DNA of 55,120 nucleotides from Candidatus Epulonipiscium sp. (lineage in GTDB: Bacteria > Bacillota > Clostridia > Lachnospirales > JAAYNZ01), in contig JAAYSE010000081.1 of assembly GCA_012524135.1 (NCBI GenBank), positions 1-55,120 on the forward strand, read 5' to 3'. Each line of letters starts with the position of its first letter. Position 1 is the stretch's first letter. The notes under the pieces are model-generated. The model was not told the origin of the DNA. It did no database searches and saw only the letters and a program-made list of their open reading frames with translations. The translations under genes and the position numbers were made by a program. This document shows, piece by piece, positions 1 through 51,308 of this stretch.

Positions 1-150
1 GATTTTCATATTATTGTTGAATATGGAGTGAAAATCTCTGCTGTCGCAGATAATTTAATCAGTACTGTCAAATATAAAGTAGAAAAATTTATCGGACTTG
101 AAGTAGAGAAAATTAATATTTTTGTGGAAGGTGTACGTGTAGATAAATAA
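1..150 (+). CDS. yloU: Asp23/YloU family protein, C-terminal part (5' end outside window)
   Basis: An open frame from base 1 ends with TAA at 148-150 and encodes about 49 residues (DFHIIVEYGVKISAVADN...). The V-x-Y-G-x-x-I-x-x-V pattern and the ending NIFVEGVRV are typical of the Asp23 (DUF322) family, which is associated with the cell envelope and alkaline stress. The gene stops 15 bases before the fakA-like gene, matching the yloU-yloV-recG order of Bacillus and Clostridia. It was below the ORF-track length limit. The role is known only at family level. Confidence 0.8.
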   Translation, partial: DFHIIVEYGVKISAVADNLISTVKYKVEKFIGLEVEKINIFVEGVRVDK

Positions 151-165
151 TAAGGAGGTAACACG

Positions 166-1824
166 GTGAATAAGCAACATATAGACAGCAGTCTTTTAAA
201 ACGGATGATAATTTCTGGAGCAAAATACTTAGAAAGAAAAAAACAAGAAGTAGATGAATTAAATGTCTTTCCAGTTCCGGATGGTGATACAGGCACTAAT
301 ATGTCGTTAACAATATTAGCAGCAGCAAAGGAATTACAAAAAATGGATTTTGATCGAGTAGATGAAGTAGCAAAAGCAGCTTCTTCGGGATCATTAAGAG
401 GAGCAAGAGGAAATTCAGGAGTTATTTTATCTCAGCTTTTTCGCGGTTTTGCTAAAGGTTTACAGGGACAAGAAAATATTACTAGCAGTAGTTTAGCCCA
501 AGCTTTTCAATCTGGAGTAGAAACGGCTTATAAAGCTGTTATGAAACCTAAAGAAGGAACCATTTTAACAGTAGCAAAAGAATGTGCAGAAAAAGCGAAT
601 GAATTAGTAGAAACAAATACAGATCTAGAAATAGTTTGTAAAAAAGCATTAGAACATGCCTACGATACTTTACAAAAAACACCAGATATGCTTCCAGTCC
701 TTAAAGAAGCAGGTGTCGTGGATGCAGGTGGACAAGGATTATTATATATTTTAGAAGGAGCTTATCATGTTTTAATAGGAAAAGAAGAAGAAATAGAGTT
801 TTTTGTAGAAGAAGAGGATAAGGAAAAACATTCTTTTCGTCATTTAACAGGTATTGATCATGAAGATATTAAATTTGGTTATTGTACCGAATTGATTATT
901 AATAAACCAGACGGGATTTTTGACGAATCTGTTATTGAAGAGTTAAAAACATACCTAACTAAAATAGGTGATTCTATTGTAGTTGTTGGTGATGAAGAAT
1001 TAATAAAAATTCATGTACATACTAATCATCCGGGTCAAGTATTTGAAAAAGGTCTTACTTTAGGATTTTTAACAAATATGAAAGTAGATAATATGCGTAT
1101 TCAACATACCAGTAAAGTTATTACAGAGCAAACTAAAATAGCAAAAGAAAAACCAGCTACTAATAAAGCAATTGGATTTATTTCTATTGCAATTGGTCAT
1201 GGGATAAAAGAAGTTTTTAAAGGTCTAGGTGTGGATTATGTTATTGAAGGTGGACAAACGATGAATCCTAGTACAGAAGATATATTAAATGCCATTGACC
1301 AAACTCCTGCTGATACTATTATTATATTACCTAATAATAAAAACATTATTTTAGCGGCAGAACAAGCGGTAGATTTATGTAAAGATAAAAAAATTATTGT
1401 AATTCCTACTCGAACAATACCACAAGGTATTTCCGCTATGTTAGGTTATGAACCAGGACGTTCTTTAAAACAAAATATAGAAACGATGGAAGTTAATATT
1501 TCCATGGTTAAGACAGGACAAATTACGTATGCTATTCGTAATACTATGATTGAAGGACAAAAAATTAATCAAGGAGATATTTTAGGAATTATAGATGAAG
1601 AAATAAAAATAATTACTCAGGATTTACAACAAAATGCAAAACAGCTACTGGATAAGATGATCGATGAAGAAACAGATATTATTACTATTTATTATGGTCA
1701 AGATACAACTCAAGAACAAGCAGAAGATTTAGGACATTACATAGAAATACAATATCCTGAATGCGAAGTAGAAATCCATAATGGTGGGCAACCTCTTTAT
1801 TATTATATATTCTCTGTAGAATAA
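166..1824 (+). CDS. fakA: DAK/DhaL-domain fatty acid kinase, FakA-like (YloV)
   Basis: A 552-residue protein with a GTG start behind a strong AAGGAGG. The N-terminal DhaL nucleotide-binding domain carries DGDTGTNM (about residues 39-46) and the glycine-rich GSLRGARGNSGVILSQ. The C-terminal half has the DegV/FakB-like fold expected of YloV. In characterised Gram-positives FakA phosphorylates FakB-bound fatty acids to acyl-phosphate, feeding the PlsX/PlsY route; plsX and plsY are also in this window. Length and position between yloU and recG match the family. No fakB gene is visible here, so the partner must be elsewhere. Transcription ends at the hairpin that overlaps the stop codon. Confidence 0.88.
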   Translation: MNKQHIDSSLLKRMIISGAKYLERKKQEVDELNVFPVPDGDTGTNMSLTILAAAKELQKMDFDRVDEVAKAASSGSLRGARGNSGVILSQLFRGFAKGLQGQENITSSSLAQAFQSGVETAYKAVMKPKEGTILTVAKECAEKANELVETNTDLEIVCKKALEHAYDTLQKTPDMLPVLKEAGVVDAGGQGLLYILEGAYHVLIGKEEEIEFFVEEEDKEKHSFRHLTGIDHEDIKFGYCTELIINKPDGIFDESVIEELKTYLTKIGDSIVVVGDEELIKIHVHTNHPGQVFEKGLTLGFLTNMKVDNMRIQHTSKVITEQTKIAKEKPATNKAIGFISIAIGHGIKEVFKGLGVDYVIEGGQTMNPSTEDILNAIDQTPADTIIILPNNKNIILAAEQAVDLCKDKKIIVIPTRTIPQGISAMLGYEPGRSLKQNIETMEVNISMVKTGQITYAIRNTMIEGQKINQGDILGIIDEEIKIITQDLQQNAKQLLDKMIDEETDIITIYYGQDTTQEQAEDLGHYIEIQYPECEVEIHNGGQPLYYYIFSVE

Positions 1825-1857
1825 AGACTAAAGTAAATCTTTAGTCTTTATTCTATT
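1822..1857 (+). terminator. Rho-independent terminator after fakA
   Basis: A perfect 12-bp stem (TAAAGACTAAAG / CTTTAGTCTTTA) with a 5-nt loop is followed by a T-rich tract. The left arm begins inside the fakA stop codon. Confidence 0.85.
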
Positions 1858-1913
1858 ATAATGAATTTTATTTTATAATTATTTCAATATTCAAGATAGA
1901 AAGGAGAAATATC

Positions 1914-3974
1914 TTGATCAGTTTACAAGATTCGGTTACAAGTTTAAAAGGAATAGGAACTCAACGATTAAAACTTTTAGAACAAATACAAATATCTACC
2001 CTTGAAGATCTTATATACTATCTACCTAGAAACTATGAAGATTGGTCTCAAGTTACAAAAATCAAAGACATTATTATAGGTGAAAAACAAACTATTGAAG
2101 GTATAGTTAGCACAACACCTCAAAATATTCGAAAAGGAAAATTAATAATAACAAAATGTAAAATTGAAGATAGTACAGGATCAATATGGGCTGTATGGTA
2201 TGGACAACCGTATTTAAAGAATTATTTTAAACCCGGTGAGAGCTATGTTTTCACTGGGAAAATAAATCGATATTATGGATCTATACAATTAATTTCATCA
2301 GAATATGAAAAAATAGATATGAATGAAAAAAATAAAAATATAGGTATTTTACCTATATATACTCTTCCACAAAAATTATCTCAAAAATTATTTCGTAGTT
2401 GGATTCAACAAAGTTTTGAAAATGTAGGAACTAATCTTCAAGAATTTCTTCCTTTATGGATTCGTCAACAATATGAGTTAGCAGATATAGCGTATTCTAT
2501 TTATCATATCCATTTTCCAAAAGATAAAGAACATTTTTTAACAGCTCGGAAGCGATTAGTATTTGAAGAATTTTTTTTATTACAAATGGGATTATTACAG
2601 ATTAAACAAGGAATTGATAAAAAAACGAAAGGAATTCAGTATAAACCTAAAAAAGATGTGGAATACTTTATTAAAAGCCTACCTTATTCTTTGACTAGTG
2701 CACAAGAAAAAGTAGTAAAAGAAATTCAAAAGGATATGTTTTTACCTTATACAATGAATCGATTAGTACAAGGTGATGTAGGTTCAGGTAAAACAGTTGT
2801 AGCAGCTATAACTTTATTATTAGCTGTAAAAAATGGTTATCAAGGAAGTATGATGGCACCAACGGAGGTATTAGCAAGACAACATTATGAAACGCTTCGA
2901 ATGTTTTTAGAACCTTTTAATATTAAATGTGGTCTTTTGGTAGGATCTTTAACCAAAAAACAAAAGGAAAATATAAATGAAAAATTGAAAAATCATAGGA
3001 TTGATGTAGTGATAGGAACACATGCTTTAATTCAAGATTCTATTTCATTTGCTAATCTTGGTTTAGTAATTACTGATGAACAACATCGTTTTGGAGTAAG
3101 GCAAAGAATGACATTAACTCAAAAAGGAAAATCACCAGATGTTCTTGTGATGACTGCTACCCCTATTCCTAGGACATTAGCTCTTATTTTATATGGTGAT
3201 TTAGATATTTCTATTATTGATGAATTACCACCTGGGAGACAACAAATTAAAACGTATGCTGTACCTTCTTCGTATCGAAATAGAATTTATCATTTTATAA
3301 AAGAAGAAATTAATAAAGGAAGACAAATTTATATGATCTGTCCTATGGTAGAAGAATCGGAAACATTAGAATTACAATCTGTAATTGAATATACTAGTCA
3401 TTTACAAAATGAAATTTTTACTAATTATAAAATTGCTTATTTACATGGTAAAATGAAAGCAAAAGAAAAGCATGATATTATGGAACAGTTTTCTCAAGGT
3501 ATAATTCAAATTCTAGTTTCTACAACTGTCATAGAAGTAGGAGTCAATGTTCCTAATGCAACGATTATGGTTATTGAAAATGCAGAGCGTTTTGGTCTAT
3601 CTCAATTGCATCAATTACGTGGTCGTGTAGGACGAGGTAAATATCAATCTTATTGTATTTTAATTTCAGATGCTAAAAATAAAATAGCTTTAGAGCGAAT
3701 GAAAGTAATGACAGAAACTACAGACGGTTTTAAAATTTCAGAAATGGATTTGAAATTAAGAGGACCTGGTGATTTCTTTGGGACAAAACAACATGGATTG
3801 CCAGATTTAAAAATTGCAAATATTTATGAAGATATGGCTGTTTTAAAACAAGCTCAAGAAGCAGTTTTAACCTTACTACAAAAAGATCCTTTTTTACAAC
3901 ATGAAGAGCATTATTTTTTAAATCAAAAAATTAATGCTTTATTTCAAAATACAGATGAAGTTTTAGCATTATAA
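1914..3974 (+). CDS. recG: ATP-dependent DNA helicase RecG
   Basis: A 686-residue protein starting with TTG behind AAGGAG. The N-terminal wedge/OB domain (about 1-190) is followed by helicase motifs: Walker A GDVGSGKT, DEQHRFGVRQR (DExH box), MTATPIPRT (motif III), then the C-terminal helicase domain with QLHQLRGRVGRG. RecG remodels stalled replication forks and Holliday junctions. Length is normal for the family and no motif is missing. It follows the fakA terminator and has no obvious promoter of its own in the 60 bases between. Confidence 0.97.
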   Translation: MISLQDSVTSLKGIGTQRLKLLEQIQISTLEDLIYYLPRNYEDWSQVTKIKDIIIGEKQTIEGIVSTTPQNIRKGKLIITKCKIEDSTGSIWAVWYGQPYLKNYFKPGESYVFTGKINRYYGSIQLISSEYEKIDMNEKNKNIGILPIYTLPQKLSQKLFRSWIQQSFENVGTNLQEFLPLWIRQQYELADIAYSIYHIHFPKDKEHFLTARKRLVFEEFFLLQMGLLQIKQGIDKKTKGIQYKPKKDVEYFIKSLPYSLTSAQEKVVKEIQKDMFLPYTMNRLVQGDVGSGKTVVAAITLLLAVKNGYQGSMMAPTEVLARQHYETLRMFLEPFNIKCGLLVGSLTKKQKENINEKLKNHRIDVVIGTHALIQDSISFANLGLVITDEQHRFGVRQRMTLTQKGKSPDVLVMTATPIPRTLALILYGDLDISIIDELPPGRQQIKTYAVPSSYRNRIYHFIKEEINKGRQIYMICPMVEESETLELQSVIEYTSHLQNEIFTNYKIAYLHGKMKAKEKHDIMEQFSQGIIQILVSTTVIEVGVNVPNATIMVIENAERFGLSQLHQLRGRVGRGKYQSYCILISDAKNKIALERMKVMTETTDGFKISEMDLKLRGPGDFFGTKQHGLPDLKIANIYEDMAVLKQAQEAVLTLLQKDPFLQHEEHYFLNQKINALFQNTDEVLAL

Positions 3975-41170: not shown

Positions 41171-41203
41171 ATTTACGGATTAATAAAATATAGTTCCTTT
41201 AAG

Positions 41204-41308
41204 TTAGTCCAGAGAGACTAGTAAGGAGAAAAATTACTTTGTATATGGGGATCTTTGGGTCTTTATGTATTAAAATATAAAACTTCTTACAGTCATGTAA
41301 GAAGTTTT
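41204..41308 (+). promoter_or_regulatory. PyrR-dependent attenuator in the pyrR leader
   Basis: TTAGTCCAGAGAGACTAG (41204-41221) fits the PyrR-binding hairpin consensus (ARUCCNGNGAGGYU in the loop). It is followed by ~50 bases that could form an antiterminator and then a perfect terminator hairpin just before pyrR. Known logic: UMP-loaded PyrR binds the loop and favours termination. Confidence 0.8.
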
Positions 41309-41312
41309 TATT
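41279..41312 (+). terminator. Attenuator terminator before pyrR
   Basis: A perfect 12-bp stem AAAACTTCTTAC / GTAAGAAGTTTT with AGTCAT loop, followed by TATTTT, 22 bases before the pyrR ATG. Confidence 0.85.
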
Positions 41313-41330
41313 TTGTAAAGGAGAATAAAA

Positions 41331-47506: not shown

Positions 47507-47628
47507 TAAACAAAAATAGATTAATTTTCTTATATCTTGTATAATAGAAAATTATATATGTGTTATTATTTTAAAAGAGACCTCTTTAGTTATAAGATAA
47601 AAAATTGCAAAAAAGTGAGGCGATCTTT

Positions 47629-48171
47629 ATGGGTTATTGGAATACAAGAGGACTACGTGGTAGTACATTAGAAGAATTAATTAATCTAACAAATGAATTA
47701 TATTATTCAAAAAAATTAGCTCTTGTTCAAAAAATACCTACACCAATTAAGCCAATTAAAATCAATAAAGAAAATCGTACTATTACACTTGCTTATTTTG
47801 AACAAAAAAGTACGGTAGATTATATAGGAGTAGTACAGGGAATTCCTATCTGCTTTGATGCTAAGGAAACAAGTCAAAAATATTTGCCACTTCAAAATAT
47901 TCATGATCATCAAATACAGTTTATGTCTTGTTTTGAAGAACAAGAAGGAGTTGCTTTTTTACTTGTTTATTTTTCTTATTATAATAAATATTTTTTTCTT
48001 CCTTTTTCCATATTAAAAAATTGGTGGAATCAGGCACAAAATGGTGGAAGAAAATCTATTCCTTATAGAGTTTTTCCTGAAAAATTTTGTATTGAAAATA
48101 AAAATGGAGCTTATGTTCATTATTTAGAAGCTTTAAATACATATTTACTATCTAAAACTAGAAATAGATAG
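47629..48171 (+). CDS. recU: Holliday junction resolvase RecU
   Basis: A 180-residue protein from ATG 47629 (GTGAGG upstream; the track's TTG at 47605 has no site). NTRGLRGSTLEELINLTNELY, QKIPTPIKPI and STVDYIGVVQGIPICFDAKET supply the PD-(D/E)XK catalytic residues (Asp about 64, Asp about 77, Lys about 79), then HDHQIQFM and a C-terminal YRVFP. RecU cleaves Holliday junctions in Firmicutes and is usually next to a class A penicillin-binding protein gene, which is missing here. Confidence 0.93.
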   Translation: MGYWNTRGLRGSTLEELINLTNELYYSKKLALVQKIPTPIKPIKINKENRTITLAYFEQKSTVDYIGVVQGIPICFDAKETSQKYLPLQNIHDHQIQFMSCFEEQEGVAFLLVYFSYYNKYFFLPFSILKNWWNQAQNGGRKSIPYRVFPEKFCIENKNGAYVHYLEALNTYLLSKTRNR

Positions 48172-48243
48172 TATAAAAATGCAAATAATGTATAAAACAA
48201 ATAAAAAATGTTGATACTCCTAGATGGTAAAAGGAGTGTTTCT

Positions 48244-49542
48244 ATGAAAAAAAAGTATTGGTCTATTATTTATGGAAGTATTATTATCATATTTTTTATT
48301 TGTTGTTTTATAAATCAATCTCATTCTAGTGTCTCTACTAATCCACATGATAAACAAACTATATCTTCAGAACAATTTTTAATAGAAATTCCTTATCAAT
48401 TATGGATAGAAGAAAATAATTATTGTTTGAATCTTTATGAACCAATAGAAGGATGTTACATAGGCGCTTATATTTTAGCTAATAAGTATGTTGATTTTGA
48501 TATTCAAGAATTTGAAAAGAAAGTTCAAAAACCCCATAGTACTTATATGTATAATCTTAAATTAGGAGAACCTTTTCCTTTGGACTGGGTCTTAGATTGT
48601 ACCAGTCAAATGAAAGTACCACATATTATTATTCATCCTCCTTCTCATTTATTTCCTTATCAAGAACATTTATTAGAACAAACATCTAAGGAATTTGGAG
48701 AATTTTTTATCCCTATGTTTGTACAATTATATCCTAATTTTACAGATTATATGGGTAGTCCTAGTGAATACAAAAATTTTTTTCAAACAGCTTCTCGTAT
48801 TTTTAAAAAAAATGCTCCCAATGTTAGTATAGTTTGGAGTTTACCTGTTGAAAACCTTTATCATAGTTTTTTATATGATCCTGGTGACGTATCTATGGAC
48901 TGGATTGGGATTCATGTGAATATTTCTACTAAAGAACAAGAAAAAAATAATAATAAAGATATTTTACAATCTATATATGATTTTTATATTACTTATCAAC
49001 ATAGAAAACCTTTAATGATTTCTCAATTAGAAATTGCTCACTATTCAACTAAAAATCATAGTTACTATATTAATGAGACCAAAACAATATTGAAAGAAAT
49101 TTATGATAAAATTAAAACTATGTATCCAAGAATTAAAGCTATTCAGTATATGAATACTTATCAAAAAGAAATAAATTCCTTAAATCATACCTATGAAAAC
49201 TTTAGTATAACAGAACAACCTGAAATATTAGATACGTATAAAAATCTGATTGCTTCTTCTCATTATTTAGAAAATATAGATGTACAATCTAATGGAGAAG
49301 TTTACCCTCAATGGATTTTACTTGATACTCCTATATATTATTTGAATGAGAAACTTTATGTATCAGATTATTTTTTTGCTCAACCCTATATACAAACAAA
49401 GTTTAATAATTTAGTAAAAAAACCTATCATTATAAAAAATCAAAAATTATATTCACTAGAAAGTATTTGTAAGGATATTGGATATAAACTAAAAATGAAT
49501 CAAAGAAAAAACTGTATTTATTTAACATTCGATAGGAGTTAG
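48244..49542 (+). CDS. Exported GH26-like protein with C-terminal stalk (copper amine oxidase N-like) domain
   Basis: A 432-residue protein from ATG 48244 behind AAGGAGTG (the track's TTG is upstream of that site). A hydrophobic N-terminal segment (about 5-24) is a signal anchor or signal peptide. Residues ~55-310 resemble a GH26 TIM barrel ([45 protein letters not shown]). The usual acid/base HEMN-type motif and the nucleophile Glu (SEFG) appear replaced (VQLYPN; SQLE), so catalysis is doubtful. The last ~80 residues fit the 'copper amine oxidase N-terminal'/stalk domain common on Clostridia surface proteins. Alignment is from memory. Confidence 0.65.
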
Positions 49543-49547
49543 ACAAA

Positions 49548-49843
49548 ATGTTATATGTTTATGATGAACAATGGCCTTGGGAATTAATACAATGGTATTT
49601 AAAAAACAAACGTGATTTACCTTGGAGAAATAAAAAAGATCCGTATAGTATTTGGATTTCAGAAATTATGTTACAACAAACTATTGGAAAATGAAAGTGT
49701 ATATTTGTGAATTATTATCACAAGATATTTTAGAAACAATGCAATGGGTTTCTTTTAAAATGATAAATAATCTAACCATTCCTACCGCATATCAAAATAT
49801 TAAAAAAAATATTTTTAATAATTCATATTATCAACAAAAATAA
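49548..49843 (+). pseudogene. mutY: MutY adenine glycosylase remnant with internal deletion and frameshift
   Basis: 49548-49694 encodes 48 residues ending in [28 protein letters not shown], the unmistakable MutY N-terminus. One frame over, from about 49680 to 49843, the text [10 protein letters not shown] ... TIPTAYQNI resembles the MutY C-terminal (NUDIX-like) end. The whole helix-hairpin-helix, catalytic Asp and 4Fe-4S cluster region (about 200-250 residues) is gone. The junction lies within CAAACTATTGG (49677-49687). It starts six bases after the GH26-like gene with TAGGAG upstream and is followed by a terminator. Family knowledge: MutY removes A opposite 8-oxoG. Confidence 0.85.
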
Positions 49844-49884
49844 TATTCTGATTTAACTCATTACTTGTTATAGTAATATTTTTT

Positions 49885-49934
49885 AAGACCAGATAGATTG
49901 AATCAATATTGATTGAATCTATCTGGTCTTATTT
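49885..49934 (+). terminator. 21-bp-stem terminator after the mutY remnant
   Basis: AAGACCAGATAGATTGAATCA and TGATTGAATCTATCTGGTCTT pair with a single mismatch around an ATAT loop (49885-49930), then ATTTT. It is the longest stem in the region and separates mutY from the his promoter. Confidence 0.85.
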
Positions 49935-49961: not shown

Positions 49962-49990
49962 TTGACAAATAGGTTAATTCCTATTATAAT
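49962..49990 (+). promoter_or_regulatory. Consensus sigma-A promoter of the histidine operon
   Basis: TTGACA (49962-49967), exactly 17 bases, TATAAT (49985-49990): a perfect match. The leader to hisZ is only about 50 bases, too short for a T-box riboswitch. Confidence 0.9.
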
Positions 49991-50045: not shown

Positions 50046-51308
50046 ATGAACGAAAAACAGCTTCATACTCCAGAAGGTGTACGAGATATATTATTTATGG
50101 AATGTCATCAGAAAAATAGTATAGAACAAAAAATTCAAGCTATTTTTCATCATCACGGATTTTGGCAGATAGAAACACCAACTTTTGAATATTTTGAAGT
50201 ATTTTCAAATGGAAAAAATAATATGGATTCAAAACAAGTATATAAATTTTTTAATCGAGAAGGTAATATTCTTGCTCTACGTCCAGATATGACTCCTCCT
50301 ATTGCTAGAATTAGTACAACAAGTTATAAAGAAACAATAAAACCGTTACGTCTTTGTTATTTAGGAAATGTTTTTCGCTATAATGAAACTTATCAAGGTA
50401 AAATGCATGAATTTACTCAAGCTGGCGTTGAAATTATTGGAATTGACTCTATGGAAGTAGATGCAGAAGTATTAGCCCTAAGTGTTCAAAGTTTAATAGC
50501 TTCTGGACTCAATGAATTTCAAATTAATATAGGTAATGTAGATTTTTTCAAAGGAATAGTATTGGAAGCAGGTTTTGATGAAAAAACAGGTAAAAAAATT
50601 CGTAAATTTATTGATACAAAAGATTATATAGGAATAGAGGAAATTATTACTAGACATCCCTTATCACCTACTCTAAAGCAATTATTTTTAGAACTTCCTC
50701 AATTATTTGGAAATATTGATATATTAACTAAAGCGAAAACTATGATACAACATCCTAAAGCAATCCAGGCTTTAGAAAAACTACAAAATCTATATCATAT
50801 TTTATGTGATTATGAAATAGAGGATTATATTTCATTTGATCTAGGTATGGTAAGTGGGCTTGAATATTATACAGATATTTTCTTTCGTGGCTATACATCT
50901 GGAAGTGGATCACCTATTTTATATGGTGGGCGTTATGATGGATTATTAGAAAAATACGGGTCTTCACAACCAGCCGTAGGATTTGCCTTGATAACCAATC
51001 AATTGTTACATGTATTAAAACAAAAACAAATTAAGATTCCGATCAAAACAGCAGATACTTTATTAGTTTATTCAGAAATAGGACGTAAAAAAGCAATAAA
51101 GATAGGTAATGTTTTGCGTAATCAAGGTTTATTTGTAGAAAATAGCTTACTAGGAGATAATATTGAAAAAAATATACAGTATGCGAAATGCAAAAGTATT
51201 AATGGAATTATATATTTTAAAGATGAAAATGATATACAACTAATGAATCTAAAAACAGGACATATTTCTTACACTACTATATCAGATCTAATACATAATA
51301 TAGGATAG
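50046..51308 (+). CDS. hisZ: ATP phosphoribosyltransferase regulatory subunit HisZ
   Basis: A 420-residue class II aminoacyl-tRNA-synthetase-like protein: HTPEGVRDILF at the start, ALRPDMTPPIARI (motif 2-like), CYLGNVFRYNE, and YGGRYDGLLEKYG (motif 3-like). It lacks the tRNA-binding part of true HisRS. It forms the hetero-octamer with short HisG and provides histidine feedback. The short-form hisG comes next, which confirms the reading. Confidence 0.93.
   Translation: MNEKQLHTPEGVRDILFMECHQKNSIEQKIQAIFHHHGFWQIETPTFEYFEVFSNGKNNMDSKQVYKFFNREGNILALRPDMTPPIARISTTSYKETIKPLRLCYLGNVFRYNETYQGKMHEFTQAGVEIIGIDSMEVDAEVLALSVQSLIASGLNEFQINIGNVDFFKGIVLEAGFDEKTGKKIRKFIDTKDYIGIEEIITRHPLSPTLKQLFLELPQLFGNIDILTKAKTMIQHPKAIQALEKLQNLYHILCDYEIEDYISFDLGMVSGLEYYTDIFFRGYTSGSGSPILYGGRYDGLLEKYGSSQPAVGFALITNQLLHVLKQKQIKIPIKTADTLLVYSEIGRKKAIKIGNVLRNQGLFVENSLLGDNIEKNIQYAKCKSINGIIYFKDENDIQLMNLKTGHISYTTISDLIHNIG

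Follow-up and report, generated by a model that had tools for sequence, protein, structure and literature searches.

The segment at positions 49548-49843 of the window (the whole stretch of DNA analysed, the 55,120-nucleotide contig JAAYSE010000081.1) is very probably a pseudogene of mutY, the gene of the A/G-specific adenine glycosylase, from the interior of which a single deletion has removed some 770 bp and shifted the frame. It belongs, as contig C201, to a draft assembly of Candidatus Epulonipiscium sp. (G000; 1.95 Mb, 218 contigs, 93.2% complete and 0.3% contaminated). The sole genome of the same genus with which it was compared is that of Ca. Epulonipiscium sp. AS21ysBPME_3 (G001), whose contig C2 is the public record JAAYNZ010000132.1. 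A protein scan for close relatives gave no match with HisZ alone, and with a two-sequence alignment this contig of G001 was the sole close one; isolates sharing the AS21ysBPME_3 name prefix occur in a biogas-digester genome study (PMC7038595).

Both surviving pieces of the gene lie on the forward strand. The head (49548-49682) comprises codons 1-45 and ends with the SEIMLQQT-bearing start of the MutY catalytic domain, as supported by its 71% identity to residues 1-45 of the G001 MutY, by its conserved positions and by a match to the TIGR01084 mutY profile (E 2.3e-12, profile positions 5-41 of 277). It keeps Glu39 of SEIMLQQT, which we take to be the catalytic glutamate by analogy to Glu37 of E. 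coli MutY. The open reading frame (49548-49694) encodes 48 amino acids, and the first-pass annotation had regarded all of them as a perfect MutY N-terminus; the MutY head is real, but the likeness stops at LQQT (residue 45), and the remaining Ile-Gly-Lys are chance residues of an out-of-frame read-through (49683-49694) that runs to the TGA at 49692-49694. The tail (49683-49843), which reads (Y)...TIPTAYQNIKKNIFNNSYYQQK and terminates at the TAA at 49841-49843, consists of the last ~48 codons of mutY, out of frame with the head. The earlier impression that this second frame resembles the MutY C-terminal domain was borne out by its alignment with residues 298-349 of the G001 MutY (62% identity, E 5e-16), the identity reaching 71% over the first 45 residues from Trp304. 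Alone, the tail matches NUDIX_4 weakly (E 0.014) and at profile positions 70-111 of 113 only, so that of the NUDIX-like domain at the C-terminus the final third is present and the rest is missing. The ATG of the tail (49691-49693) overlaps the TGA of the head in an ATGA stop-start arrangement (49691-49694), from which coupled translation of a 50-aa tail piece is conceivable judging by the bases.

G001 carries the direct ortholog of the remnant at the corresponding locus (contig C2, locus L035 of 5947 bp, positions 2731-3783), there as an intact mutY encoding 350 aa, and the gene order recU / CuAO-N protein / mutY / hisZ / hisG is common to both genomes. In the window the flanking genes are intact, syntenic and on the forward strand: recU (47605-48171; PF03838, E 3e-66, 82% identity to G001), the gene immediately upstream with a weak Cu_amine_oxidN1 match (48208-49542; profile search and synteny with G001) and hisZ (50046-51308; 68% identity to G001), after which come hisG and other his genes. 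The DNA of both genomes is collinear all the way from the gene upstream of mutY into hisZ, with a single large gap that falls inside mutY; hence the remnants are collinear pieces at the orthologous site of an intact gene, which identifies them as a mutY pseudogene. Head and tail are each 71% identical to the G001 protein over 45 codons; the G001 protein is full length and carries the helix-hairpin-helix (HhH), the Asp and the Fe-S cysteines, which are absent from the remnant.

The junction (49681-49683) reads CAAAC|T|ATTGG in the alignment with L035, the T at 49682 being assignable to either side. Between the anchors ATGTTACAACAAAC and ATTGGAAAATGAAAG there are 773 bases in G001 and one in the window, a net loss of 772 bp (3 × 257 + 1), so the reading frame shifts across the junction. 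Locating the ends by alignment with an intact relative, as had been suggested, thus yielded one gap at 49682/49683. The deletion removed residues 46-302 (G001 numbering), and with them some two thirds of NUDIX. Within this interval lie the HhH motif LPGIGPYTAG (residues 116-125), the Asp-bearing PAVDGNV (residues 137-143) and the 4Fe-4S cysteines (residues 194-210), in agreement with the original observation that HhH, catalytic Asp and Fe-S cluster are missing; the catalytic Glu39 stays.

The way in which the ends were joined was considered by comparison with G001, which stands in for the ancestral junction bases and places the deletion no more finely than the split from G001. The junction in the window does fall within CAAACT / ACTATTGG, which had been put forward as short direct repeats at the deletion ends; we nevertheless consider a deletion between such repeats very improbable. 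In the G001 gene the ends are CAAAC|CAGAGTAG and CACCGTC|ATTGG, they share no word in register, and the proposed repeats have no counterpart there; the words occur in the window because the junction itself created them. Within 40 bp of the two ends the longest words in common in G001 have 7 bases and are offset. Microhomology could amount at most to the T at 49682, or to one or two bases more. At the junction there is no element, target-site duplication or footprint, only one unassigned base (T). We propose that the deletion would have arisen by illegitimate joining (slippage or end joining), with homology of at most a base or two, and without recombination between repeats or participation of a mobile element.

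The lack of an in-register repeat argues not only against repeat recombination but also against collapse by the assembler. A mis-join in the draft, the true chromosome carrying an intact mutY, is considered very improbable. The fragmentation of the assembly into 218 contigs speaks for it, and in a draft that is fragmented and 93% complete a mixed population, a mis-join or an unassembled mutY elsewhere is possible. Against it, the G001 ends hold no repeat long enough to collapse, the 7-base words being out of register, and the missing middle of mutY is on no other contig of G000. An assembly error at the junction is accordingly unlikely.

The state of the remnants bears on the age of the loss. 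Their pN/pS of 0.36 falls inside the 95% range of the flanking genes (0.10-0.50, median 0.28), and they are thus no less conserved than these. Judged by the positions conserved among 20 intact MutY sequences from the order, all 20 such residues survive in the head and 6 of 8 in the tail, where the two exceptions differ in G001 also, and no new stop codon has appeared in either piece. These 26 conserved codons offer ~65 nonsynonymous sites, none of them changed, and the neutral time since the loss is accordingly at most ~0.046 changes/site (0.086 when only the 14 invariant codons are used), on a branch of ~0.48 changes/site estimated from synonymous divergence. Had the remnants evolved neutrally over the full branch, the probability of their being free of stops would be ~3e-6. 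The first-pass annotation had inferred a recent loss from the absence of extra stops; the retained residues and the bound of ~10-18% of the branch sustain it, and mutY was probably lost in the final ~10-20% of the branch that leads from the G001 split to G000, a figure that is an upper bound from 26 codons under equal branch rates. The least credible reading is that the head (48 aa) and the tail (50 aa) are still made and functional, or that the gene is rejoined by frameshifting: although the ATGA overlap and the stop-free remnants with their conserved residues would fit it, with residues 46-302 gone there is no HhH-GPD, Asp or Fe-S cluster and only one third of NUDIX, a frameshift-rejoined product would miss the same domains, and the residues are conserved because the loss is recent.

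Between the pseudogene and hisZ, a near-perfect 48-bp hairpin on the forward strand followed by ATTTT (49884-49931; fold z −8.3) is likely, from its sequence, to be a terminator (bidirectional) after mutY. A pattern scan returned no terminator-like site here in G000 or in G001, and it missed the hairpin because the tail holds only four T. No recognisable counterpart exists in G001, and a mobile repeat was rejected since the hairpin is single-copy in the genome. A simple deletion rather than a mobile element had been argued from a retained terminator and promoter; the single collinear gap supports the simple deletion, but the terminator cannot be called retained when G001 has no such hairpin. 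The consensus promoter of hisZ, TTGACA-17-TATAAT (49962-49990, forward strand, found by pattern scan), is indeed intact in both genomes. Elsewhere in the window, the sole Rfam match is a PyrR binding site (RF00515) at 41192-41314, upstream of pyrR-like and uracil-permease-like genes.

No second mutY was found in the G000 assembly by searches with TIGR01084, HhH-GPD, NUDIX_4 and the G001 MutY, which matched only endonuclease III (nth, contig C19), MutT (contig C98, above the NCBIfam MutT cut-off) and the two mutY remnants; the whole-assembly search that had been recommended thus disclosed no intact copy. A second, distinct MutY is present in G001 (contig C134, locus L034, positions 211-1266, minus strand), beside an operon for a sugar ABC transporter. 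Its closest grouping is with a MutY of another family (G037; support 99/99), which points to recent acquisition by transfer or to contamination of the assembly by that contig; as G000 has no counterpart, it was rejected as a backup copy.

Regarding other 8-oxoG repair genes, mutM was found in neither G000 nor G001 and is rare in the order (56 genomes). An OGG-type glycosylase (OGG_N) occurs in 46 of these 56 genomes, G001 among them, and was not found in the G000 assembly. In G001 it lies in a groES / DUF554-like / OGG / 250-aa protein block (locus L104, contig C16, positions 1-3721), and its neighbours have no match in the G000 assembly either. Since a genome of this kind should carry groES, the block is probably an assembly gap; OGG loss is not claimed, and its interpretation as a second hit in G000 was dropped because the whole groES neighbourhood is missing from the assembly. 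That G000 is essentially devoid of 8-oxoG repair glycosylases, with mutM absent, OGG possibly lost, mutY recently lost and only MutT left, is a speculation to which we attach a low probability. If true, it would make G000 and G001 a natural before/after pair for the effect of MutY loss on the base composition of an anaerobe.

With the mutY pseudogene as its only trace of the enzyme, the cell would now be unable to remove adenine from 8-oxoG:A pairs, MutT and endonuclease III staying. A modest increase in G:C to T:A changes would be expected if the organism is an anaerobe, as its relatives suggest. The loss was evidently tolerated, as in most of the order. In G000, four flanking genes have a third-position G+C of 9-15%, and in G001 of 19-22%, a difference whose direction is not polarised. 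A loss of mutY this late can explain at most the smaller part of it, and the earlier proposal that it adds to the AT richness of the genome does not hold beyond, at most, a push in the same direction from now on. Most likely the neighbourhood was already low in G+C when the gene was lost.

Nor is the loss unusual. A full mutY scores above cut-off in 19 of 56 members of the order, about two thirds of the sampled genomes (37 of 56, some of them incomplete) having no full match. Among members at least 90% complete, genomes with a full mutY are larger (mean 3.3 versus 2.3 Mb, p 1e-4). The mutY-less members are lower in G+C in 8 of the 9 families with both states, a small sample (Wilcoxon p 0.012), while without family pairing the difference is not significant (p 0.17); for most genomes the G+C value comes from a single stretch surrounding nth, 20 kb at the longest. 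An association between mutY absence and low G+C exists, with no direction shown.

Loss of mutY has been described in other bacteria. The literature search found no paper reporting that Clostridia lack mutY, and none dealing with the gene in Epulonipiscium. In the Calyptogena clam symbionts (Ruthia magnifica, clade I) a mutY pseudogene and mutY deletions are known; the gene was recently inactivated in one lineage and deleted in others between the same flanks, while relatives keep it intact, as G001 does (PMC3202245). Those symbionts differ in being obligate intracellular with genomes of about 1 Mb, and the Ruthia mutY is split by a stop codon (PMC3202245), whereas that of G000 is interrupted by a 772-bp out-of-frame deletion. 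In the mutY-less Calyptogena symbionts the rRNA genes are lower in G+C, and Buchnera and Hodgkinia are counter-examples to the association of mutY loss with G+C (PMC3202245). In high-light Prochlorococcus, reduced AT-rich lineages, mutY is absent outright, which has been proposed to contribute to base composition; the passages on it describe no remnant (PMC551534, PMC2836286), whereas G000 keeps its remnants.

The mutY pseudogene of G000 is ordinary gene decay in an order where the gene is missing many times over. As a clean and datable loss of a repair gene, the remnant provides one data point on whether losing mutY is a cause of AT richness or comes after it.
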